From NCBI GenBank assembly GCA_001799365.1, contig MGTI01000053.1, positions 1-42,573 on the forward strand: a DNA stretch of 42,573 nt, read 5' to 3'. Source of the DNA: Desulfobacterales bacterium GWB2_56_26 (lineage in GTDB: Bacteria; Desulfobacterota; Desulfobulbia; Desulfobulbales; Desulfocapsaceae). A program made the position numbers and the translations under genes. This document shows, piece after piece, positions 12,236 to 26,383 of this stretch; the first letter of the stretch is position 1, and each line of letters begins with the position of its first letter. The notes beneath the pieces were generated by a model. That model was not told the DNA's origin, searched no databases, and saw only the letters and a program-made list of their open reading frames with translations.

Positions 12236-12270
12236 AAAAAAGGGCCGGAGCTGCAAAGCAGCTCCGGCCC
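12236..12270 (-). terminator. Intrinsic terminator after the SQR-like gene
   Basis: A perfect 13-bp stem (GGGCCGGAGCTGC at 12242-12254 against 12258-12270) closes an AAA loop (TTT on the transcribed strand). On the minus strand it is followed by six T residues (12241-12236). It begins 36 bp after the TAA at 12306, not directly after the TGA at 12540. This is independent support that the transcript and reading frame extend to 12306. Confidence 0.92.
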
Positions 12271-12305: not shown

Positions 12306-13532
12306 TTACTTGACCCGGTGCTTTCCTTCCATCATCAGATTCGGCGGTCCTAACCAGACACCCTTCAGGAGAAGGTTGAAGTAGGCCCATTTGAACATCA
12401 GTTTTGACATGTGGTTTATTTCCGTGTCTTTCAACAGACTGAGCGGTCCCACGGCAGGGAACGGATATTTTCCGGTCAAAGGTTCTTGTGAGTAGTTGAA
12501 GTCGATAATGTAGGCTTTCCCGAAGCCTGATTCGATGAATCAGACCGCGTGGCCATCCGACCGGGCGTGCTGTTCACCCCCGGTGATGTAGGCCATGATA
12601 TTTTCGTGCAGAACATCGCCCTGGAAATGGGCAACCGCGCCCGCCTTGGAGGTCGGAACGTCGGTACCGTCGCCAAGAGCCCAAACATTATCGTAGCCTT
12701 TCGGCTGCAGGGTGTGCTTGTCGACCGGAATGTAGCCCATGGGATCGGAGATCCCCGAGTCAATCATCACCTGCGAACCGAAGTTCGGGGGGATGGAGAC
12801 GAGCATATCGTAGTTGACTTCCGTGCCGTCATAGGCGGCGATCACCTTTCTGGTGTGATCTACCGAGCCGATGGCGAAGTTGGGGGTAATCTTGATATTC
12901 TTGTCTTTGCAGGCATCGGTCAGAATGCTGGTCGCTACCGGTTTGGTAAAAGCGCCGGCCAGCGGGGTGACGAACTCGATTTCCACCTTGTCGCGGATGC
13001 CGCGCTCGTAGAAATACCAGTCGGCGAGGAAAGCGAACTCAAGGGGGGCCACCGGGCACTTGATCGGCATCTCGGCGATGTTGACGACGAGTTTGCCGCC
13101 GGTAAACTTCTTCAGGGCCTTGCCGAGTTCCTGGCAATCGTTGTAGCGATAATACCCGAAGATATCGTTGCCCCATCCTTCCGCCAGACCTTCCACCTCT
13201 TCGGGGCGGACGTCGCAGCCGGTTGACATGATGAGAACATCGTATTTAAAAATACCTTCCGTGGCGGTGGTGACTTCCTGCTTGTCCCAGTCGACATTGG
13301 TCAGTTCGGAGATGACGAAATCGATCCCCGGCTTGATGAATTCCCGGCGGCTTCTTCTGATATCCTTGGGTTTGTTGATGTCAAACGGCACGAAGAGAAA
13401 GCCCGGCTGATAATAATGGACGTTATCCTTGTCAATCAGGGTAATCGTCCAGTCATCATCGAGGTCTTTCCTCATTTTGTTTGCCATCATGGTGCCGCCG
13501 CAGCCGGCACCCAGTATGACGAGTTTTTTCAT
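12306..13532 (-). CDS. Sulfide:quinone reductase family flavoprotein with in-frame TGA (candidate selenocysteine, U331)
   Basis: 408 residues if TGA at 12540-12542 is read as an amino acid. The FAD-binding Gly-Ala-Gly-Cys-Gly-Gly is at 8-13, Ser-Thr-Gly-Cys at 103-106, and Cys159 in Lys-Cys-Pro-Val-Ala-Pro matches the conserved SQR redox cysteine. Gly-Asp-Gly-Thr near 287-290 is the second FAD motif. Frame and homology continue past the TGA without a shift through Phe-Ile-Glu-Ser-Gly-Phe-Gly-Lys and Ile-Asp-Phe-Asn-Tyr to a basic C-terminus and TAA. From my memory of the family, relatives have Cys at the TGA position (His-Ala-Asn-Cys-Phe-Ile-Glu). A SECIS-like hairpin follows. SQR enzymes oxidise sulfide to sulfane sulfur and reduce membrane quinone; this member's substrate is not proven. 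ATG at 13532 follows AGGT. DUF1641 is upstream. Alternatives are a nonsense mutation or a sequence error. Confidence 0.85.
12512..12542 (-). promoter_or_regulatory. Candidate bacterial SECIS element after in-frame UGA
   Basis: In the mRNA, UGA (12542-12540) is followed by 11 nt and then the stem-loop AGGCUU-CGGGA-AAGCCU (12528-12512): six perfect pairs and a 5-nt loop with G at position two. The loop starts 17 nt after the UGA, within the 16-37 nt range described for bacterial SECIS elements, which favour a G among the first two loop bases. SelB would bind here. There is no selA, selB, selC or selD in the window. Confidence 0.6.
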
Positions 13533-13608: not shown

Positions 13609-14568
13609 TTACGCGAGCGCTTCCCGTTGCTGTTGTTTGTCCTTCTGATATGCCTGCAGGCAACTGCCGACCGCCTGCAGCATCATGAAGAAGAATCCGA
13701 AGGCCTCCTGGACCTTGGGATCGTTCACCATCTTGATCATGCCTAAGGGGCCGATCGGTTTGACCTTGCTGAAATCCAGGCCGCTTATCACCTTACAGAT
13801 TTCCTCGATTTGGCTTTCATTGCAATCCAGCCGTTTCATGAAGGTGATCATCGTTCCGGCCAACTTGATCAGGCCGCTGCCCTGCTGCAGCCCATCGAGC
13901 CAGATGTTCATGCCGTTGAGAACATCGGTCTCTTTCATCAACACCCCGACTTCCTTGACGAACTCGGTCATCGGCTGCACCATGTTGAGCAGATCGCTCA
14001 GGGTATGGACGTTGATGAGGACGGTATGCAGGAGATCGCCCAGCTTTTCCGCCTGGAATTCCCCCTCATGCAGGGAGTTGAGGAATCGCAACATGCGGGG
14101 GTACATAAGCTGCAGAATGGGCACCATCTCGTCGCGCAGTTCGACCCCTGCCCGAAGCATGTCCAGTCCCTCCCCCATCGCATCGAGGTTGGTGAGGGCC
14201 TTGCGCAGCAGGATGGTCAGTTCGTCGACGTGAAACTCCCCTTCCAGGTCGGCAAAAAACTGTATCGATTTGGGATACGTCTGCTTGAGGATGGGCTCCA
14301 TGTCGCGGGTCAGCTCGACGCCGGCCTTCATGACACCGACGACCTCGTTTATCTCTTCGAGGCTGGTCAACAGGGTTTTGGCCACATGGATAAACTTCTC
14401 ATTGGAGTACCCGCCCTCGATGTCTTGAAAAAAACCGGTCAACCCGGGCTGGGCCTGTTTGAGAATCGGTTCCAGTTCCTGTTTCAGTTCCTGAAACACG
14501 TCCGACTTCAATGATCTGACTTCATCCGAGAGCCGGTCCAGCTTCTCCAGAATCAACGCTTCATTCAT
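13609..14568 (-). CDS. DUF1641 family protein with three 58-residue tandem repeats
   Basis: 319 residues, helical, with no membrane segment. The C-terminal part (about 210-305) has the DUF1641 look: Gly-Leu-Ile-Lys-Leu-Ala-Gly, then Pro-Ile-Gly-Pro-Leu-Gly-Met and Asp-Pro-Lys-Val-Gln-Glu-Ala-Phe-Gly-Phe. Before it are three tandem units at about 32-89, 90-147 and 148-206, each starting with (L/M)(E/V)PIL and sharing Tyr/Gln-Pro at 9-10, an acidic turn near 20 and Ala-Gly-Val-Glu-Leu near the end of the first two. ATG at 14568 has a GAGAG ribosome site. It is 76 bp upstream of the SQR-like gene, and DUF1641 proteins are recurrent SQR neighbours, so a role in assembling or anchoring that flavoprotein is plausible but unproven. 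Confidence 0.82.
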   Translation of the reverse strand: MNEALILEKLDRLSDEVRSLKSDVFQELKQELEPILKQAQPGLTGFFQDIEGGYSNEKFIHVAKTLLTSLEEINEVVGVMKAGVELTRDMEPILKQTYPKSIQFFADLEGEFHVDELTILLRKALTNLDAMGEGLDMLRAGVELRDEMVPILQLMYPRMLRFLNSLHEGEFQAEKLGDLLHTVLINVHTLSDLLNMVQPMTEFVKEVGVLMKETDVLNGMNIWLDGLQQGSGLIKLAGTMITFMKRLDCNESQIEEICKVISGLDFSKVKPIGPLGMIKMVNDPKVQEAFGFFFMMLQAVGSCLQAYQKDKQQQREALA

Positions 14569-15266
14569 TTTATTCTCTCGCTCATTAGATTCACCCGTTA
14601 CGCTTTTCGTGCAACGGTATCCCATTCGACAGGGACGGCTTTCCGATTCCGGCCCATGTCGTTCTGTATGCTTTATTCAGGGAGGGGTGTTTGGTCAGTT
14701 CGGGATCCGCTCCTCCAGCTGCCACACCTAAGAAATAATCAGATGCCCTGTTTGCACTTTTCGAACAAACTCATTTTTTCTTGTCTCTTACTGTGTGGTA
14801 TTGCACTATGTAGTACCATACTGCGTAAAAAATGAAAAGCCGGAAGACGATCCTCCTAGCAACTTTTACTCGGAGTTTTTCCTTAATCCCGTAAAGGTGG
14901 GTGGTTAAGAAGCCAGCAAATGGATCTCATTGCCGGTTAACAGCTGTTTCGGAAGTCCGGGCAAACGTACCCGGCGTCAATCGGAGAGAGAAGACCTGAT
15001 AGCAACCATTACCAGAACAAATATTCAACCTGCACTTCATGCATAATTTGCATTACAAATGTTGGTTCAATCTTTGATATCATGGGGGGAGCTTACGGAA
15101 AACAAGAAGCTGCCGCAAGAAAGGGGGAAGGAAAAAGGGGGCGCATTCCGGGAGGCCTGTATCAGGACTGCAGGGAAGAATGCGGACAAACATCCGTCAC
15201 AGCCAAGAAGAGGGATACAACCTCTCACTGTTGCCCTCCCTCATCTGATATGCCTTGAGCTCGCTC
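14569..15266. other. 698-bp region with no convincing gene
   Basis: It lies upstream of the DUF1641-SQR operon and downstream of the small unknown gene, both on the minus strand. No frame here has normal codon use or a recognisable product. An AT-rich stretch at about 14760-14840 contains TGGTA...TACCA half-sites and could hold the operon promoter and an operator. A small CCGGG...CCCGG hairpin lies near 14957-14977, and another AT-rich block near 15030-15060. I see no tRNA, riboswitch or repeat array. Confidence 0.5.
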
Positions 15267-16640: not shown

Positions 16641-17102
16641 CTAAAGAAGAGTCATAATCACTGCAACCGCTTCAGGAACAGCCCGGGCCACCGCCGCAGT
16701 CAGGCCGCCGCCCAGACGGTTGAAACAGCTGCCCTCGATGCCGACCAGATAGATGTTCTGCGGGACTCGTTCCGGATAAAGGATTGTGCCGACGCCAAGG
16801 GCCTCCCGGATGCCGATGCCGTGACCGCTGACCGGCCTCGGCGACGTGGCCGGCAGCTGATCCCAGCCGAGCCGGTGGACAGTACCGGCAGGACTGCCCA
16901 GCTGCACGCCGTCGACCACGATGAGCAGCTCTTCGCCGGCCAGTTCTTCCAGGAGGTCGATCCCTCCCAGGCCGAGAAAAGTCAGCCGCACCTTATCCGG
17001 CAGCGGCTGCTCAAGCAGAAGCTCGTAAACCGCCCGCCCGACGCCGTCATCGGCGGCCAGCTCGTTGCCGATGCAGACGATCAGGACGCGGCCGTCGTTC
17101 AT
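16641..17102 (-). CDS. [NiFe] hydrogenase maturation endopeptidase (HyaD/HycI family)
   Basis: 153 residues from ATG at 17102, two bases after the stop of the preceding gene (TAAGTATG). Family signatures are Gly-Asn-Glu-Leu-Ala-Ala-Asp-Asp-Gly-Val-Gly near the N-terminus, Val-Asp-Gly in the middle and Gly-His-Gly-Ile-Gly. The first Glu/Asp, the central Asp and the His form the nickel-recognition site in this family. After nickel insertion it removes the C-terminal tail of the hydrogenase large subunit. That substrate is encoded three genes upstream and still has a 24-residue tail after its last cluster motif, so the pair fit. It is the last gene of the hydrogenase operon. Confidence 0.92.
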   Translation of the reverse strand: MNDGRVLIVCIGNELAADDGVGRAVYELLLEQPLPDKVRLTFLGLGGIDLLEELAGEELLIVVDGVQLGSPAGTVHRLGWDQLPATSPRPVSGHGIGIREALGVGTILYPERVPQNIYLVGIEGSCFNRLGGGLTAAVARAVPEAVAVIMTLL

Positions 17103-17104
17103 AC

Positions 17105-17578
17105 TTAAGGGCGTACGCCGCTGAAGGCGAGACTGAAGCTGCAGTTTTCGCCCGTGGCCAGGGTCTTCGGCCGGGCCGGAAGGCCGCAGAGTTCGGCCAT
17201 AATGCCGGCAATATAGTAGTGAAACATCTGACAGGCCTGGCCGCCGATCTCCATCTGCCGGTTTTTGCAGACGCTGCCGATGGGACAACCATGCAGTTCG
17301 ATGACCGCCTCCGGTCCGGTAAGGCGTCCATCGATATCCATCTTTTGAATCTTCATGACCCGGATGAATTCGTCAAGCGCCGCCGCAGGGGTCTTCTCGG
17401 TCATATGAATCGGCAGATTGACCGCCATTTTCCGACCGGCGGCGACCGCAAGCGCGGGGGTCGACTTGCCGACAAAGGCCACGGTGGTCTCGATGAACAT
17501 ATCGAGGAGAAAGGAAACCTCGGTGAAGGCTTTGTCGTAATCCTCCGGGGTCAGCGTCAGTTCAATATTGCCGCTCAT
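17105..17578 (-). CDS. V4R-like protein of the hydrogenase operon, copy 2
   Basis: 157 residues, no signal peptide. The C-terminal half has a cysteine pattern recalling 4-vinyl-reductase (V4R) domains: Gly-Cys-Pro-Ile-Gly-Ser-Val-Cys near 96-103, Gly-Gly-Gln-Ala-Cys-Gln-Met-Phe-His-Tyr-Tyr-Ile-Ala-Gly near 111-124, and Gly-Glu-Asn-Cys near 143-146. The protein at the head of the same operon shows the same spacing, ending in Gly-Glu-Asn-Ala-Cys, so the two look paralogous. Its ATG overlaps the ferredoxin stop by 4 bp (ATGA). V4R domains bind small hydrophobic or cofactor-like ligands in other systems. A role in hydrogenase assembly or sensing is inferred only from position. Confidence 0.65.
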   Translation of the reverse strand: MSGNIELTLTPEDYDKAFTEVSFLLDMFIETTVAFVGKSTPALAVAAGRKMAVNLPIHMTEKTPAAALDEFIRVMKIQKMDIDGRLTGPEAVIELHGCPIGSVCKNRQMEIGGQACQMFHYYIAGIMAELCGLPARPKTLATGENCSFSLAFSGVRP

Positions 17579-17826
17579 AAAAATTTCTCCATGCGCATGC
17601 TGAATTCGATATTGCGGTAAAAATTCTTGACCACATGATGATTGCGATGGGCAATTGCCCCCGACGGGCAGATATAGGCGCAGCTCAGACAGCCGATGCA
17701 GTTTTCCACAACCGCCACCGTGACCTTCTTCGTCGCGGCCTCATAGGCAAAACATTCCGTCGGGCAGACGTCCTGGCACAGCCGGCAACCGCGACAGGCC
17801 TTTTCGTTGATCGTCATCTCCAGCAT
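17575..17826 (-). CDS. 2x[4Fe-4S] ferredoxin of the hydrogenase operon
   Basis: 83 residues from ATG at 17826. This start has GGAGG 8 nt upstream and lies two bases after the large-subunit stop; an in-frame ATG at 17841 would lie inside that gene. Two complete cluster motifs are visible: Cys-Arg-Gly-Cys-Arg-Leu-Cys-Gln-Asp-Val-Cys-Pro and Cys-Ile-Gly-Cys-Leu-Ser-Cys-Ala-Tyr-Ile-Cys-Pro. A basic C-terminal tail of about 25 residues follows. It is the obvious electron carrier between the hydrogenase small subunit and an external partner, since no diaphorase, MvhD or Hdr gene is present in the operon. Confidence 0.92.
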   Translation of the reverse strand: MLEMTINEKACRGCRLCQDVCPTECFAYEAATKKVTVAVVENCIGCLSCAYICPSGAIAHRNHHVVKNFYRNIEFSMRMEKFL

Positions 17827-17828
17827 CT

Positions 17829-19247
17829 TCAGCCCCTCCATATCGTTTTCGTTATCCTGCCATTTTCCCGGAATTCCACGGCCAGGGCCATCTTACCTAT
17901 GGCATGGGTCGAACAGGCAAGACAAGGATCGTAGCAGCGCACCACGAACTCCAGGCCGTTCAGCATCTTTTCGTCCTCCCCCCCCTGGAAGAGGGCATTG
18001 GCCCCCGCCTTGATCGATTTGTTGATTGCCGCGGTGTTCTGCTGGGTGGCAACGATCATATTAGCCGCCCGGACAATGCCTTTCTCGTCGATTTCATAGT
18101 CGTGGATCAGGGTACCCCGGGGAGCCTCGATATGGGCCACGCCGCGGCCGCCGGTAAAGGTGACCGGTACCCGGTTGTCGCCCCGAAGCGCCGAGTTGTT
18201 GATCAGCTGATCCGCCCGTTCGCAGGCATAGATCAGCTCGACCAGCTTGGCATACATCTGGATCACCGCGTTGTGGCAGGGCCGGCCGAATTTTGCCCGG
18301 AACTGTTCGAATTCCGCCTGGGCGAGCGGCGTGCCGATGCCGTCGACCACATTCAACCGGGCGAGGGTGCTGACCCGATAGAGATGCTCCGCTCCTTCGT
18401 AGTCGATATAGACCTCTTTGGCGTAGGAATTGGTCACCGTCCGCTCGGCGAGGAACTTCCGGTAGTCGGCGCTGGCGAATTCGGTTTTGATTGTGCCTTT
18501 CTCGTCCATGACCCGCAGGCGGCCGTCGTAGAAACTGAGCAGGCCGTCGTCGGTCACCGTCCCCAGGTACCAGGTAGGCAGATTGAGGCTGTCGAGCAAC
18601 TGCGGATTATCGTCAAAGAGCCGCAGCAAGAGGGTCTTGACCGGTCCGGAAAGCTCCTTGACCAGCCCCACCGCCTCGGCGGTCAGCTCCTTCAGCCTCT
18701 GGAACTGGCCGTCGCTGAGGTCAAAGGAAATGCCGCCCGCCACCGCAGTGACCGGATGGATGCCGCGGCCGCCGATGGTCTCGTTGATCTTCTGGCCGAG
18801 ACTCCGCAGGCGCAGTCCTTTCCCCGCGAGTTCCGGTTCGGCTGCCACCATGCCGACGATATTCTGGGTGGCGGCGTTGCCGGTAAGACCGAAGACCAGA
18901 TCGGGACCGGCGAGGACAAAGAGCGACAGCGCATGGGAATGGATGACATGGCCCATGTACATGAATTCCCGCAGCAGCCGGGCAGCCTCCGGAATCTCCA
19001 CTCCGGCCGCATGATCGAGGGCCTTGGCCGCGACCAGATGGTGGGCGGTCGGGCAGACGCCGCAGATGCGTGCGGTGACCTGGGGCAGGGTGTGGGCCTG
19101 CATGCCGACCAATATCCGCTCGAACCCCCGCAGTTCGTTGACGCAGAAGAAAGCCTCCTCCACCTTACCGTTATCGTCGCAATCGAGGAGGACCCGGGCA
19201 TGACCCTCGATCCTCGTTACCGGATCTATTTTAATCGTTTTGGACAT
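17829..19247 (-). CDS. [NiFe] hydrogenase large subunit, group 3 (Mvh/F420-non-reducing-like)
   Basis: 472 residues from ATG at 19247, which overlaps the small-subunit stop as TGATG. The proximal nickel motif is Arg-Ile-Cys-Gly-Val-Cys-Pro-Thr-Ala-His-His near residues 60-70. The distal motif is Asp-Pro-Cys-Leu-Ala-Cys-Ser-Thr-His near the C-terminus. All four nickel ligands are cysteine, so this is a standard [NiFe] enzyme, not [NiFeSe]. A 24-residue tail after the final His is the expected substrate of the operon's endopeptidase. It reversibly converts H2 to protons and electrons in the cytoplasm. The sequence resembles MvhA-type subunits, but without MvhD or HdrABC nearby the exact subgroup and electron acceptor remain open. 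Confidence 0.93.
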   Translation of the reverse strand: MSKTIKIDPVTRIEGHARVLLDCDDNGKVEEAFFCVNELRGFERILVGMQAHTLPQVTARICGVCPTAHHLVAAKALDHAAGVEIPEAARLLREFMYMGHVIHSHALSLFVLAGPDLVFGLTGNAATQNIVGMVAAEPELAGKGLRLRSLGQKINETIGGRGIHPVTAVAGGISFDLSDGQFQRLKELTAEAVGLVKELSGPVKTLLLRLFDDNPQLLDSLNLPTWYLGTVTDDGLLSFYDGRLRVMDEKGTIKTEFASADYRKFLAERTVTNSYAKEVYIDYEGAEHLYRVSTLARLNVVDGIGTPLAQAEFEQFRAKFGRPCHNAVIQMYAKLVELIYACERADQLINNSALRGDNRVPVTFTGGRGVAHIEAPRGTLIHDYEIDEKGIVRAANMIVATQQNTAAINKSIKAGANALFQGGEDEKMLNGLEFVVRCYDPCLACSTHAIGKMALAVEFRENGRITKTIWRG

Positions 19248-20179
19248 CAGCGGGCCTCCCCTTCGGCGATCCACTTGCGGATGAGAAATGTTGGTTTATT
19301 GCCGATCATCTTGGTCGCCATGGCGTAGGCGTACTGCGTCTTGGCTGTTCTTTCCAGATGGTCTTTCACGGTGTCGTATGGGATTTTGGTCAACCGGGAC
19401 ATCCGCTGGCCGATCTCGGTGCGGATATCCCGAGTCGGCTCGGTGAGCACCTGCATGGTGGGGCCGGCGCATCCGCTGCATGGCACCCCGTGATTGGGAC
19501 AGGGGGCCAGGCAGCGGTCAAGCGTCACCGATCCCTGGCAGATATAGCCCTGACTGAGAAAGCAGGTTTCTTTGTCCGGTACGCCCTCGGTTATCTCTTT
19601 AATGGTGTCCGCCTCCGTCTTGACCATGGTCCGCCGACAGCCGGCGCAGACGCTTTCCTTGCCGGCCTTGGGCGAGCGCTGCTCGATCAAGGCGCTGAGG
19701 CCCTCGAAGATGAAGTGGGGATGGGGCGGACAGCCGGGCAGATAGAGATCGACATCGATAACCTCGTCGATGGGGGTGACCATCTTTTCCAGACTGCTCA
19801 CCGAATTGTTCGGTAGAAAATCGGTCCTGGTAGTCGGACTCTGCCGGTAGACGTGATCCATGATCTCTTCACGGCTGTGGGCGAGGCCTGCGCCGTGCAA
19901 CCCGCCGTAGACCGCGCAGGTGCCGAAGGCGATGATGGTTTTACAGTTTTTCCGCATCTCTATTGCGGCGTGACGGTCGTGTTCGGTCCGCACCGAGCCG
20001 GTGAGGATGCCGATATCCGCTGCCGGATAATTCTTCTCGTCGGTCAGCACCGGACATTTCAGGATCGTAACCGACTCCAGGACCTTTAAAATCTTTTCAT
20101 GCAGATCGACCAGGGCCACATGACAACCGCCGCAATCGCACAGCCACTCGGTATTCAGGCGAATCTTATCTCCGCTCAT
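19247..20179 (-). CDS. [NiFe] hydrogenase small subunit, MvhG-like
   Basis: 310 residues, no twin-arginine signal, so cytoplasmic. The proximal cluster ligands include Cys-Asp-Cys-Gly-Gly-Cys-His near 14-20, Gly-Thr-Cys-Ala-Val-Tyr-Gly near 86 and Leu-Pro-Gly-Cys-Pro-Pro-His-Pro near 148. The C-terminal half adds Cys-Ala-Gly-Cys-Arg, Cys-Gln-Gly, Cys-Leu-Ala-Pro-Cys-Pro and Cys-Ser-Gly-Cys-Ala-Gly, giving ligands for further [4Fe-4S] clusters. It passes electrons from the large subunit's Ni-Fe site to the ferredoxin. The length and cysteine pattern match MvhG-type small subunits better than the shorter HoxY type. Stop and next start overlap (TGATG). Confidence 0.92.
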   Translation of the reverse strand: MSGDKIRLNTEWLCDCGGCHVALVDLHEKILKVLESVTILKCPVLTDEKNYPAADIGILTGSVRTEHDRHAAIEMRKNCKTIIAFGTCAVYGGLHGAGLAHSREEIMDHVYRQSPTTRTDFLPNNSVSSLEKMVTPIDEVIDVDLYLPGCPPHPHFIFEGLSALIEQRSPKAGKESVCAGCRRTMVKTEADTIKEITEGVPDKETCFLSQGYICQGSVTLDRCLAPCPNHGVPCSGCAGPTMQVLTEPTRDIRTEIGQRMSRLTKIPYDTVKDHLERTAKTQYAYAMATKMIGNKPTFLIRKWIAEGEAR

Positions 20180-22256: not shown

Positions 22257-24140
22257 TCAATCCTGCACGACCCTGTTGAGAATCCGGTAGTTTCTCTCGA
22301 CCATGGCCAGCGGATCGACGTTAAGCCCCGCCTGGATCATGGCATTGTCGTGGATCTGCCGGGCTATTTCCGCAGCGAAATCCTCGTCTTTCACGGAGAG
22401 CTCGGCCAGTTTTCTGATCAGCGGATTCTGCGGATTGATTTCGAGTTTCTTCTTGCTCTCACCCATCCCGGGAAAGCCCTTTTCCTTCCGGCCGGCGGCC
22501 AGGACCCGCTCCATGGTGGAGGTCATGAAGGCGTCGGGATTGACGATCATGGCCGGGGCGTCGACCAGGCGCTTCGACACCACGACTTCCGAGATATGCT
22601 GCTCCAGGACCTTCTTCATCCATTCGGTCAGCTTGGCAAGAGTATCATGGTCGAGCTTCCTGCCATCCTCGCCTGGCGCAGTCTCCTCCTTCAACTCTTT
22701 TTCGTCTCCCGCGATGGCGAGATCGGCCCGGTCGGCGGAAACGAGCTTTTTGCCTTCGAATTCGGCGAGATGGCTGAGGACGAAGTCGTCGATCGGCTCC
22801 ATGGTATAGATGATCTCGATATCCTTCTTGCGGAACATCTCGATATACGGCCCGGCCTCGATGGCGACCCGGCTGGGACCGTTGATATAGTAGATTTCCT
22901 GCTGCTCGGGACCCATCCTGAGGAGATAATCGGCCAGCGAAATCGGCTTGCCTTCCTCCGATTTGGAAGACTCGAAGCGCAGCAGTTTGCCCAGCTCCTT
23001 CTGGAATTCATAGTCGGAGGTAATTCCCTCCTTAATATAGATGCCGAAAGCTGTCCAGAACTTCAGATATTTTTCGGGATCGTTCTTGGCCTCTTCGTCC
23101 AGAGATTTGAGGAAACGCTTGGTGATGACCTTGCGGATCTTCGACACCAGGGCGTTGTCCTGCAAGGCCTGGCGGGAGATGTTGAGCGGCAGGTCCTCGC
23201 TGTCCACCACGCCCTTTAAAAACCGCAGCCAGTCGGGCAGAATGTTCTTGGAATGCTGATCGATGAGGATCCGCTGGCAGTAGAGGTTGACGCCGGGATC
23301 GGTCTTGCCGAAACCGAAGACCTCGAAGTTTTCGGTCGGCACGAAGAGCAGGGCATTGATGGCGAGCGGCGCATCGGCGGAAAAGTGCAGCCGGTACAGG
23401 GGATCGCTCACCGCATTGCCGACGAACTTGTAAAACTCCACGTACTCTTCATCCTTGATCTCGTTCTTGTTCCTGGTCCACAGAGCCTGCACGGTGTTGA
23501 TGGTCTCGCCGTCCAGCTTGATAGGAAAGGAGACGAAAGCCGAGTACTGCTTGATGATCGCACTGATTTTCCACTTCTCTACATATTCCTTGGCGTCGTC
23601 CTTCAACTCGACTATGACCTTGGTGCCGCGGCGCAGGCCGGGCATCTCGCTGATGGTGAAGGAGCCCGTACCGTCCGAGACCCACTCATGCCCTTCGCTT
23701 TTATCCCACGAGCGGCTCTGCACCCTGACCGTCTTGCCGGCCATAAAGGCTGCATAGAAACCGACACCGAACTGACCGATAAGGCTGACATCCTTTTTCG
23801 CTGCCTCGACCAGTTCAGCCATGAAGGTGTTCGATCCGGAATGGGCGATGGTCCCCAGATTGTGTTCCAGCTCAGTGCGGGTCATGCCGATGCCGGTATC
23901 GGTGATGGTCAGGGTGTTGTTCTTTTCGTCGAGATCGATGGTGATTTCCAGCGGCAGGTGGCCGTCGAAGATATCGGTCTGGGTGATGCTTTCGTGGCGG
24001 AACTTCTCCAGGGCATCGGCCGCATTGGAGATCAATTCCCGGATAAAGACGTCTCGTTCGGTATAGAGGGAATTGATCACTATATCGAGGAGTTTTTTGG
24101 TTTCTGCCTTGAATTCATAGGTTGCGGTCTGGCCTGTCAT
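22257..24140 (-). CDS. htpG: Hsp90-family chaperone HtpG
   Basis: 627 residues, normal bacterial length. The N-terminal GHKL ATPase domain shows Phe-Ile-Arg-Glu-Leu-Ile-Ser-Asn-Ala-Ala-Asp-Ala near 34-45, Asp-Thr-Gly-Ile-Gly-Met near 80-85 and Gly-Gln-Phe-Gly-Val-Gly-Phe near 122-128. The middle domain contains Leu-Pro-Leu-Asn-Ile-Ser-Arg-Gln and the C-terminal dimerisation region ends near Arg-Ile-Leu-Asn-Arg. It is a cytoplasmic ATP-dependent chaperone for client maturation and stress recovery. ATG at 24140 is preceded by AGAGGTGA. A 9-bp inverted repeat lies about 60 bp upstream; it is not the HrcA/CIRCE sequence. Confidence 0.96.
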   Translation of the reverse strand: MTGQTATYEFKAETKKLLDIVINSLYTERDVFIRELISNAADALEKFRHESITQTDIFDGHLPLEITIDLDEKNNTLTITDTGIGMTRTELEHNLGTIAHSGSNTFMAELVEAAKKDVSLIGQFGVGFYAAFMAGKTVRVQSRSWDKSEGHEWVSDGTGSFTISEMPGLRRGTKVIVELKDDAKEYVEKWKISAIIKQYSAFVSFPIKLDGETINTVQALWTRNKNEIKDEEYVEFYKFVGNAVSDPLYRLHFSADAPLAINALLFVPTENFEVFGFGKTDPGVNLYCQRILIDQHSKNILPDWLRFLKGVVDSEDLPLNISRQALQDNALVSKIRKVITKRFLKSLDEEAKNDPEKYLKFWTAFGIYIKEGITSDYEFQKELGKLLRFESSKSEEGKPISLADYLLRMGPEQQEIYYINGPSRVAIEAGPYIEMFRKKDIEIIYTMEPIDDFVLSHLAEFEGKKLVSADRADLAIAGDEKELKEETAPGEDGRKLDHDTLAKLTEWMKKVLEQHISEVVVSKRLVDAPAMIVNPDAFMTSTMERVLAAGRKEKGFPGMGESKKKLEINPQNPLIRKLAELSVKDEDFAAEIARQIHDNAMIQAGLNVDPLAMVERNYRILNRVVQD

Positions 24141-24198
24141 GATTCACCTCTTGCAAATGTAACGGGTCGGGAAAGGGCCCCGGGACTTCCGGAGGCTC

Positions 24199-24240
24199 CT
24201 TACCATTGATTTTTTTCCTAAAGTCGGCCAAAATGGTAAG
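24199..24240. promoter_or_regulatory. Inverted repeat in the htpG / phosphoesterase divergent region
   Basis: CTTACCATT (24199-24207) and AATGGTAAG (24232-24240) form a perfect 9-bp inverted repeat with 24 bp between, in the 165-bp space separating divergent htpG and the phosphoesterase gene. The spacing suits a dimeric regulator over a shared control region. An RNA hairpin with a long loop is also possible. Confidence 0.4.
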
Positions 24241-24305
24241 CATCGATCACCTGCTGTCAAGACTTCCCCGGCAGTCGCAACCGCCTCCTTGAACAAGAAA
24301 ACGAC

Positions 24306-24986
24306 ATGAAAATAATAGTCTTCGGCGACATCCATATGGCAACCGGCGAGGCCCGGCGTATTCCGGGAATAGCTGAAGCCGACCTGGTGATCCTGAACGG
24401 CGACCTGACCAACCGCGGCGGGATCAGGGAAGCGAAGATCGTCCTGGACGACATCCTCGGCCTGAACCCGAAGGTGCTCGCCCAGTTCGGCAACATGGAC
24501 CGCCCGGAAGTGAACGACTACCTGGAGAACCTGGGGCTCAACCTTCACGGCCAGGCGCGCCTGATGGGCGGCGAGATCTGCCTGGTCGGTGTCGGCGGCT
24601 CGAATCCCACCCCGTTTCGTACCCCGTCGGAATTCTCCGAGCAGGAGCTGCTGCGCCTCGCCGAACAGGCGATGAGCCAGGGATTGGAGTATAAGAAGCT
24701 TGCCGAACCCCTGCATAGAAGAAGTATCCCGCTGATCCTGATCTGCCATGCGCCGCCTTTGAACACTACCGTCGACACCCTCCGCAGCGGCAGGCATGTC
24801 GGCTCTTCGGCGTTTCGTACCGTTATCGAAAAATATCGACCGGATCTCTGCATCACCGGCCATATCCACGAGGCAAAAGCCAGGGACACCCTGGCCGGCA
24901 CTCCGATTGTCAACCCCGGTGCACTGCGAGGCGGCTGGGTAACCATCCATATCAACCATTCCCAACTGGAAATCGACCTGCAATGA
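24306..24986 (+). CDS. Calcineurin-like metallophosphoesterase
   Basis: 226 residues. The five metal-binding motifs of the family appear in order: Gly-Asp-Ile-His near 8-11, Gly-Asp-Leu-Thr near 32-35, Gly-Asn-Met-Asp near 62-65, Cys-His-Ala-Pro-Pro near 148 and Gly-His-Ile-His-Glu near 185-189. It should be a dinuclear-metal phosphohydrolase in the cytoplasm; the third motif has Asp where many members have His. Sequence does not give the substrate. No signal peptide. The stop overlaps the start of the protoporphyrinogen oxidase gene as ATGA, so the two are translationally coupled. Confidence 0.88.
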   Translation: MKIIVFGDIHMATGEARRIPGIAEADLVILNGDLTNRGGIREAKIVLDDILGLNPKVLAQFGNMDRPEVNDYLENLGLNLHGQARLMGGEICLVGVGGSNPTPFRTPSEFSEQELLRLAEQAMSQGLEYKKLAEPLHRRSIPLILICHAPPLNTTVDTLRSGRHVGSSAFRTVIEKYRPDLCITGHIHEAKARDTLAGTPIVNPGALRGGWVTIHINHSQLEIDLQ

Positions 24987-26383
24987 ACGATCATTATCAG
25001 ACCATTATCATCGGCGGCGGGCTCTCCGGACTCACCGTCGCTCATAAGTTGCGGCTGCAGAAACCCCATCACCGCTTTGTGGTTATCGAAAAAAGCGGCC
25101 GGACCGGCGGTGTTATCGCCACCCACCGCAACCAGGGCTATACCGCCGAAATCGGCCCGCACGGTTTTCTCGACAACTGCCCGGAAAGCAGGCAGATTTT
25201 AGCCGAGACGGGTCTTGACCGGGAATCTCTGCAGGCGCCGCTGATCGATTTTGTCCGGTACGTCTATTTGCACGGCCGGCTGAACCTCATCCCCCAGACC
25301 CCGAAAAAGATCCTGATGGCGCCGCTCATCCCCTGGCAGGCCAAGCTGCGGGTGCTGGCCGAACTCTGGCAGCCGGTGCTGGGCGGCGAGCCGACGGTGG
25401 CCAAATGGGTTGCTCACCGCTTCGGCAAGGCGCTTTTACCCTATGTGGACGCCGTCTATACCGGCACCTATGCCGGCGATTACGACCGCCTGACCATCGA
25501 CAGCGTCATGCCGGGATTACGAGCCCTGGAAAAGGAACACGGCTCGGTGCTGAGGGGAGCACTGCAGCGGCTGCGGGCAAAAAGACAGGAAAAGTCGGTA
25601 AAAACGCCGTTCAGGATGCCGGCCATGACCAGCTTTCCTGAAGGGATGGCCCGTCTGCCGGCAAGACTTGCGGAAAACCTGGCCCCCGGCCGGGACCTTT
25701 TGCTCGATACCGCCGTGACTGCGGTGCACTCCGCGGGCAGCGGCTGGCAGGTGGAGACCGACAAGGGTATGCTGCAGGCAAGTCAAGTGGTGGTCGCCCT
25801 GCCCATCAATGCGGCCTTACGGCTGCTTGCCGCACTCGATCCGGCCATGCCGGAAAAGTCCGTACCTGAGGCTCAACTTGCCACCGTCGTCCTGGGCTTT
25901 GCCGACACAGTCAAGCTGCCGCCGGGCTTTGGCTTTCTTACCCCTGAATGCGAACAGCGTTTTGCCCTCGGCGCCCTCTTTTCCTCGAATATGTTTCCCG
26001 GCCGGGCGCCGGCAGGCCATATCGTTTTTGAAACCCTCGTCGGCGGCAGAAGACATCCGGAACGAGTCGAGCTGGATGACAGAACGCTGACCCGCAAGGC
26101 CTTTGAAGATGTCCGGCAGATTCTCGGCATCGCCATGGAGCCGGCCTACAGCACGGTTTTGCGACCCTGGGGCGGCATTCCCCAGCTCGAACGCAACTAT
26201 CCGGGCCTTCTTGCCTGGCGCAGGAGATTTCTTGCCGCCCACCCCCATCTCCATATCTGCGGCTTCGGCTGGGAAGGCATCGGTATGAACGACATGATGA
26301 AACAGGCGACCCGGGTCGCCGAAGAACTTCTTGCCCCGGGCCGGCGAGAAGAAGTCGCCGAAATCAAAGGGGTCTATTTTTAA
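24983..26383 (+). CDS. hemG: Protoporphyrinogen oxidase, HemY-type flavoprotein
   Basis: 466 residues. The N-terminal FAD motif is Ile-Ile-Gly-Gly-Gly-Leu-Ser-Gly-Leu near 9-17, followed by Glu-Lys-Ser-Gly-Arg-Thr-Gly-Gly near 36-43 and Glu-Ile-Gly-Pro-His-Gly-Phe. Tyr-Thr-Gly-Thr-Tyr-Ala-Gly-Asp is typical of HemY-type enzymes, and the C-terminus has the FAD-contact Cys-Gly-Phe-Gly-Trp-Glu-Gly-Ile-Gly. It oxidises a porphyrinogen to the porphyrin late in haem synthesis. HemY-type enzymes use oxygen in other organisms; in a probable anaerobe another acceptor would be needed. The symbol follows common automated naming; it is unrelated to E. coli flavodoxin-like HemG. A coproporphyrinogen oxidase (CgoX) role cannot be excluded. 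Confidence 0.88.
   Translation: MNDHYQTIIIGGGLSGLTVAHKLRLQKPHHRFVVIEKSGRTGGVIATHRNQGYTAEIGPHGFLDNCPESRQILAETGLDRESLQAPLIDFVRYVYLHGRLNLIPQTPKKILMAPLIPWQAKLRVLAELWQPVLGGEPTVAKWVAHRFGKALLPYVDAVYTGTYAGDYDRLTIDSVMPGLRALEKEHGSVLRGALQRLRAKRQEKSVKTPFRMPAMTSFPEGMARLPARLAENLAPGRDLLLDTAVTAVHSAGSGWQVETDKGMLQASQVVVALPINAALRLLAALDPAMPEKSVPEAQLATVVLGFADTVKLPPGFGFLTPECEQRFALGALFSSNMFPGRAPAGHIVFETLVGGRRHPERVELDDRTLTRKAFEDVRQILGIAMEPAYSTVLRPWGGIPQLERNYPGLLAWRRRFLAAHPHLHICGFGWEGIGMNDMMKQATRVAEELLAPGRREEVAEIKGVYF

Follow-up and report, generated by a model that had tools for sequence, protein, structure and literature searches.

Can a UGA codon that interrupts a gene of the sulfide quinone reductase (SQR) family be read as selenocysteine (Sec), and what would such a residue do in the enzyme? 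The question is raised by a stretch of 42,573 nucleotides from Desulfobacterales bacterium GWB2_56_26 (contig MGTI01000053.1, assembly GCA_001799365.1; the whole stretch is referred to below as the window), in which the minus-strand gene for a flavoprotein of this family contains an in-frame TGA. SQR couples sulfide with the respiratory chain and, in human mitochondria, serves to detoxify it (PMC12510033). Conservation of the UGA, the Cys-containing homologues, constraint on the codons that follow, the decoding machinery except selA, the predicted fold and the position of the residue together point to a selenoprotein, in which the UGA is almost certainly decoded as Sec by SelB through a hairpin just downstream, the Sec insertion sequence (SECIS). 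Taken as a whole, a Sec-decoding SQR gene with the catalytic mechanism proposed below is very probably the best explanation of the locus.

An in-frame UGA opposite a conserved cysteine

The reading frame begins at ATG 13532, runs for 330 codons to TGA 12542-12540 and continues for 77 more codons to TAA 12308-12306; re-reading of the coordinates agreed with the preliminary description on this point. The open frame alone proves little, since a scripted count found 30 TGA-split frames in the six frames of the window, the Sec gene included (at least 80 and at least 60 open codons on either side of the TGA, counted stop to stop). It was therefore dismissed as weak, and independent evidence was sought. 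One of the 30 frames concerns htpG (22257-25004, minus strand), where a long in-frame open stretch and a TGA precede the start and mimic read-through by coincidence. On sequence grounds, homology and not the open frame is decisive for a real gene across the TGA. The NCBIfam model NF049943 matches residues 2-405 at 665.8 bits against a cut-off of 525, and human SQOR aligns over residues 4-399. Both alignments extend past the TGA and the protein is conserved to its C-terminus.

Among 66 related loci from public genomes, the codon aligned with the TGA was TGA in 33 and TGC or TGT in 29; four loci did not cover it, and no other codon occurred. The UGA thus lies opposite the Cys of homologues and is kept as UGA in relatives, as in bacterial selenoproteins, which upholds the claim that it replaces a conserved Cys and answers the check for UGA in relatives that had been advised. 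Hosts of the TGA loci are Desulfobulbaceae, Desulfocapsaceae and unplaced 'deltaproteobacteria' or similar, including the named strains Desulforhopalus singaporensis, Desulfopila aestuarii and Desulfosediminicola flagellatus; the Cys loci are mostly from Bacteroidota and Chlorobiota. A motif given in the preliminary description, His-Ala-Asn-Cys-Phe-Ile-Glu, fits the Cys homologues, with residue 330, just before the Cys, being Asn in 59 and Thr in three of the 62 distinct Cys proteins (three nested ones, described below, included). In all 38 distinct Sec proteins of the window's clade residue 330 is Val or Leu. Co-switching of this residue with Sec is no rule, since in a second Sec clade it is Thr in 18/18 loci.

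It might be argued that the TGA is a nonsense mutation or an assembly error in an ordinary Cys gene and that the codons beyond it are a relic, the source assembly being fragmented (263 contigs, 89% complete). The same-codon TGA in half of the 66 loci, which come from other assemblies and include named strains, together with conservation to the C-terminus and six post-TGA codons that are constant in 38/38 genes, in effect refutes this explanation, whose probability is negligible.

The preliminary description had presented the protein as a new, undescribed selenoprotein, which does not stand. The deep-Sep study lists an 'NAD(P)/FAD-dependent oxidoreductase' as a predicted selenoprotein in two Desulfosediminicola strains (Xiao & Zhang 2025, PMC12013277), a prediction that is cited under NF049943 and the SQR name in a review (PMC13188914). 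NF049943, 'type III sulfide quinone reductase, selenoprotein subtype', describes the same family and the same HxxU-type Sec position as the window protein. D. flagellatus IMCC35005, a strain named by deep-Sep (PMC12013277), is the host of one of the loci studied here (L039); its protein is about 80% identical to that of the window, and its gene is taken for the one predicted. What is new is the evolutionary pattern and the naming of the catalytic position, not the discovery of the selenoprotein itself.

The candidate SECIS and the decoding machinery

The hairpin that would direct Sec insertion has a 5-nt loop (CGGGA) on a 6 bp stem, lies 17 nt from the UGA and has a predicted folding energy of -9.5 kcal/mol. 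By direct comparison it falls inside the limits published for bacterial SECIS elements (section 5 of PMC13188914), namely a loop of 3-9 nt, a stem of 4-16 bp, a G in the first two loop positions, a distance of 16-37 nt from the UGA and a minimum free energy of at most -7.5. Codon usage in this region is nearly frozen. Codon 334 (GAA) and codons 336-340 (GGC TTC GGG AAA GCC) are the constant six in the 38 distinct Sec genes of the window's clade, and Ser335 is encoded by TCA in 34 of the 37 genes that have Ser there. Mean normalised codon entropy over codons 334-341 in these genes is 0.13, versus 0.80 over 224 other conserved codons, only one of which does not exceed 0.15; 29 Cys genes from the same order give 0.88 over this stretch (five codons counted).

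For the machinery, the advice had been to search the genome for selA, selB, selC and selD. The source genome was found to hold selB, selD (with an inner TGA) and tRNA-Sec; a search of the assembly, which is 89% complete, found no selA. The gene for selA is present in 15 of 18 genomes searched, including all nine same-genus genomes that are at least 93% complete; the three without it are the source and two of the same genus that are 84% and 56% complete. The tRNA-Sec is an Rfam match at L011 1-87 (minus strand) that lacks its 3' end at the contig end, and its UCA anticodon is what speaks for its identity.

Several observations weigh against a functional SECIS and Sec decoding. In 27 distant Cys genes (26 from Bacteroidota or Chlorobiota plus L052) the stretch is also the lowest-entropy window, far less markedly (0.58 over six codons versus 0.84 elsewhere), so a small share of the constraint may be unrelated to a SECIS. 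The energy of the window hairpin is unremarkable (z -1.7, with 18 of 200 shuffles as good), and the values for one second-clade gene are -1.03 and -1.20; energy was accordingly treated as weak evidence and the synonymous-site test was used instead. No covariation could be demonstrated, because the stretch hardly varies. To these points are added the absence of selA from the search of the source assembly, the failure of ARAGORN to call a tRNA at L011 1-87 where Rfam matched, and the passing of the Rfam cut-off for tRNA-Sec by 5 of 14 control genomes.

Translation through the codon could also reflect a genome-wide reassignment of UGA to Trp or Cys, or selenium-free read-through. Against this, cheR in the window terminates at TGA 7073-7071, the genome holds selB, selD and tRNA-Sec, and the stretch past this codon is frozen only in genes that have UGA there, having drifted in nested Cys copies. 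Such a recoding is scarcely credible, and decoding as Sec is preferred.

Probable exchange of selenocysteine and cysteine within the family

Among 257 genomes of the window's order, 65 have NF049943 matches above the cut-off, at 75 places by hand count, of which 39 have one TGA and 36 no inner stop; nine of the 65 genomes hold both kinds. All 35 of the stopless places that were inspected have TGC or TGT, and the top score in the order belongs to a Cys gene (L090/L094, 680 bits). The 'selenoprotein subtype' label therefore catches Cys proteins too, and the model does not separate them from Sec proteins.

A tree of 51 proteins was built with 10 of the 59 Cys proteins from outside the window's Sec clade. 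Inside that clade it places three Cys genes: L099 and L101, from two genomes, and the Cys copy of L102. This tree needs three Sec/Cys changes, a single change being found in 0% of 200 bootstrap trees, and the number is again three in a quick tree from which the columns near residue 331 were left out. Placing the Sec genes of this clade together without the nested Cys copies was rejected (p 0.0017, for a group defined by codon). The SECIS codons of the nested copies have drifted, in L099 and L101 through synonymous changes; the L102 Cys copy has no hairpin, while L099 retains a six-pair stem with an altered loop. Each of these genomes also carries a TGA copy. The two nested Cys lineages are probable Sec-to-Cys reversions.

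Beyond the window's order, 395 genomes sampled from the phylum yielded TGA genes only in one family (f21) of another order. The 29 genomes of that order hold 17 TGA places above the cut-off plus one partial, and 11 stopless places above it, three of which (G524:C95, G580:C56, G643:C26) had no codon read. Two genomes found in this search, G484 and G643, each contain two TGA copies and one copy without an inner stop. Codons 338-343 (GAG AAG GGG TCC CTT CTC) are common to all 18 loci of this second Sec clade; across its 17 full-length loci their entropy is 0, versus a mean of 0.56 over 228 other codons, 13 of which are at 0. The hairpin differs from that of the window's clade, having the loop GGUC 25 nt past the UGA rather than at 17 nt.

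A tree of 68 proteins, in which the window's clade is represented by 23 of its 38 distinct Sec proteins and the Bacteroidota/Chlorobiota by 2 of their 26 Cys proteins, and from which the long-branch rows L065, L176 and L179 were omitted, needs five changes of the Sec label (5-5 in bootstraps); a 57-row tree that had those rows also needs five. Partial loci (such as L075, L079, L081, L086, L138, L139 and L169) were kept outside the trees. In two of these, L138 2357-3525 and L139 965-2142, both from genomes of family f8, the Sec gene is frame-broken and lacks residues around 171-211, through either an assembly error or a real lesion. A single origin of both Sec clades, nested Cys genes included, was rejected at p 0.0005, a value that is optimistic because the nested rows were picked after the tree was seen. 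The 68-protein tree also places four Cys genes (L171, L172, L192, L194) inside the second Sec clade, where L171 still folds the hairpin; an approximately unbiased test does not reject their alternative placement (p 0.318), and whether they represent a third reversion is unsure. With the root among Cys genes, the five changes may be read as two gains and three reversions, the third of these not being secured.

The catalytic pair, its neighbours and the proposed chemistry

Sequence and structure alignments pair Sec331 with Cys379 of human SQOR, and Cys159 with Cys201. Cys159 is invariant in a 26-row alignment and is Cys in 38/38 Sec and 62/62 Cys rows, so the window protein has a predicted pair of redox-active residues of the human kind. 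In a structure model the SQR fold extends over the whole chain, which has a C-terminal helix (residues 371-388), and matches human SQOR (6oi5, 6oi6, 8dhk) along the chain with a template-modelling (TM) score of 0.88. This fold, with the profile match and the human alignment, bears out the original assignment to the SQR family. The two proteins are about 26% identical, and the window enzyme differs in being bacterial, in having Sec for Cys379 and in its DUF1641 partner gene. The SQRs of Acidithiobacillus ferrooxidans and Aquifex aeolicus share the common fold (TM about 0.80) and are remoter than human SQOR in both sequence (E about 2e-15 and 2e-13) and fold. The Sec-containing CoA-disulfide reductase type FAD oxidoreductase (TIGR03385, PMC13188914) belongs to the same broad flavoprotein superfamily but differs in family and motif (UGxP), and the window protein scores 39.6 bits against its cut-off of 578.8.

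We infer Sec insertion, contact with the membrane, the chemistry, the direction of the reaction in the cell and quinone as the acceptor. In the mechanism that appears likely, a redox bridge would join Cys159 and Sec331, probably through an intervening sulfur (Cys-S-S-Se). Sulfide would open this bridge, the sulfane sulfur that leaves would be passed on from the Sec side to an acceptor, the persulfide on Cys159 would make a C4a adduct with the flavin, and the selenolate would re-close the bridge while FAD becomes reduced; FADH2 would give its electrons to quinone. With a selenolate instead of a thiolate, opening of the bridge, transfer of the sulfur and repair following oxidation may all be faster. 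Three points count against this enzymatic picture. The structure model was built with Cys at position 331 and contains neither flavin nor quinone; among solved structures the closest is human SQOR, presumably a type II SQR, yet NCBI names the family 'type III'; and a search of the open-access literature found no enzyme assay or biochemical study of the subfamily.

The gene might alternatively give two products: the full-length Sec enzyme when selenium is available and, when it is not, a truncated protein of 330 residues that has a role of its own. Such a dual outcome is inherent to UGA decoding, but the shorter product would be missing helix 371-388 and one of the catalytic positions, and the nine genomes with both kinds of gene meet both needs separately, with one TGA gene and one without; a second functional product is improbable.

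The upstream gene carries a C-terminal DUF1641 motif, and its true start is probably near 14568, where most homologues start aligning. Of 54 Sec loci that include 1.1 kb or more of upstream sequence (several of the 54 being one genome fetched twice), 53 have a homologue of this gene upstream, 51 of them within 400 bp; 0/59 Cys places outside the clade have one upstream. Some Cys genes have a DUF1641 gene downstream, by Pfam match in L055, L094 and L114 and by likeness only in L053, L117 and L121; none was seen beside the Cys genes in the compared loci L052, L065, L097, L104, L106, L099 and L101. A tie of the partner to Sec is therefore not borne out, and what differs is the gene order. On the contig of one TGA locus (L047), L102 3242-5976 has a tandem Cys copy (TGC) and then a Sec copy behind one DUF1641 gene. 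No paper joining DUF1641 with sulfide quinone was found in the open-access literature.

In the Bacteroidota locus L055 (4270-5817) genes of the DUF1641, DsrC and DsrE families come after the Cys gene, with which they likely form a sulfur-relay operon, and in L065 a DsrE family gene lies downstream of the Cys gene. These neighbours tie the module to sulfur carriers, which keeps open a reductive or sulfur-relay role: the protein could be a selenoprotein that is not a sulfide oxidase in the cell and that instead works in reverse or in a side reaction (such as polysulfide, persulfide or sulfur reduction), with the DUF1641 protein as its scaffold. The lineages of the named hosts are sulfate-reducing and sulfur-disproportionating and make sulfide, which counts for a reductive role, and a low-potential Sec bridge would suit that direction. 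Human SQOR, which oxidises sulfide, is the best match to the fold and to both catalytic residues, and the reductive role is considered rather unlikely.

Past the TAA, a GGGCCGGAGCTGC/GCAGCTCCGGCCC hairpin followed by T's starts at 12270, about 36 bp beyond the stop; judged by eye, it agrees with the terminator noted earlier. Elsewhere in the window, 16641-20179 (minus strand) holds uninterrupted frames for NiFe hydrogenase genes nearest the Vhu kind, below curated cut-offs: a large subunit with a VhuU-like end and a VhuG-like small subunit. A hydrogenase maturation protease accompanies them.

Table 1. Features of the Sec gene and its surroundings (window positions) and loci of the second Sec clade
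Feature	Position	Strand	Basis or remark
Predicted Sec-containing SQR-family gene	12306..13532	-	408 aa with Sec331
In-frame UGA, Sec331	12540..12542	-	aligned with catalytic Cys379 of human SQOR
Cys159, partner cysteine	13056..13058	-	aligned with Cys201 of human SQOR
Probable bacterial SECIS	12512..12541	-	fold, codon constancy, published limits
UGA-proximal hairpin	12529-12541	-	part of probable SECIS
Main hairpin AGGCUU-CGGGA-AAGCCU	12512-12528	-	loop starts 17 nt past UGA
Upstream partner gene, C-terminal DUF1641 motif	13609..14625	-	Pfam PF07849, E 5e-6
Probable intrinsic terminator	12236..12270	-	13-bp hairpin and T run, judged by eye
Second Sec clade loci	L160-L169, L182-L189		family f21, another order; unrelated hairpin identical in 18/18

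Joining the tree to the proposed chemistry, it may be that the second catalytic position of SQR flips repeatedly, with at least two independent Cys-to-Sec gains that have unrelated SECIS elements and two to three reversions, some in genomes that keep a Sec copy, and that the Sec enzymes use a Cys-S-S-Se(Sec) bridge as a catalytic cofactor; the chances of this combined proposal are put at about even. A catalytic cofactor of this kind is not described in the open-access literature found. Multiple gains per family are of a known kind: the count of Zhang et al. (2006, PMC1794560) has 33 switches from Cys to Sec spread over 17 families, and it assigns to FdhA and SelD two thirds of the 15 reversion events. 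The present family would add probable Sec-to-Cys reversions outside those two. A predicted selenoprotein family gains a concrete mechanism for testing, and the natural Sec version of one SQR catalytic residue, accompanied in some genomes by close Cys copies, provides a ready-made test of the benefit of selenium.
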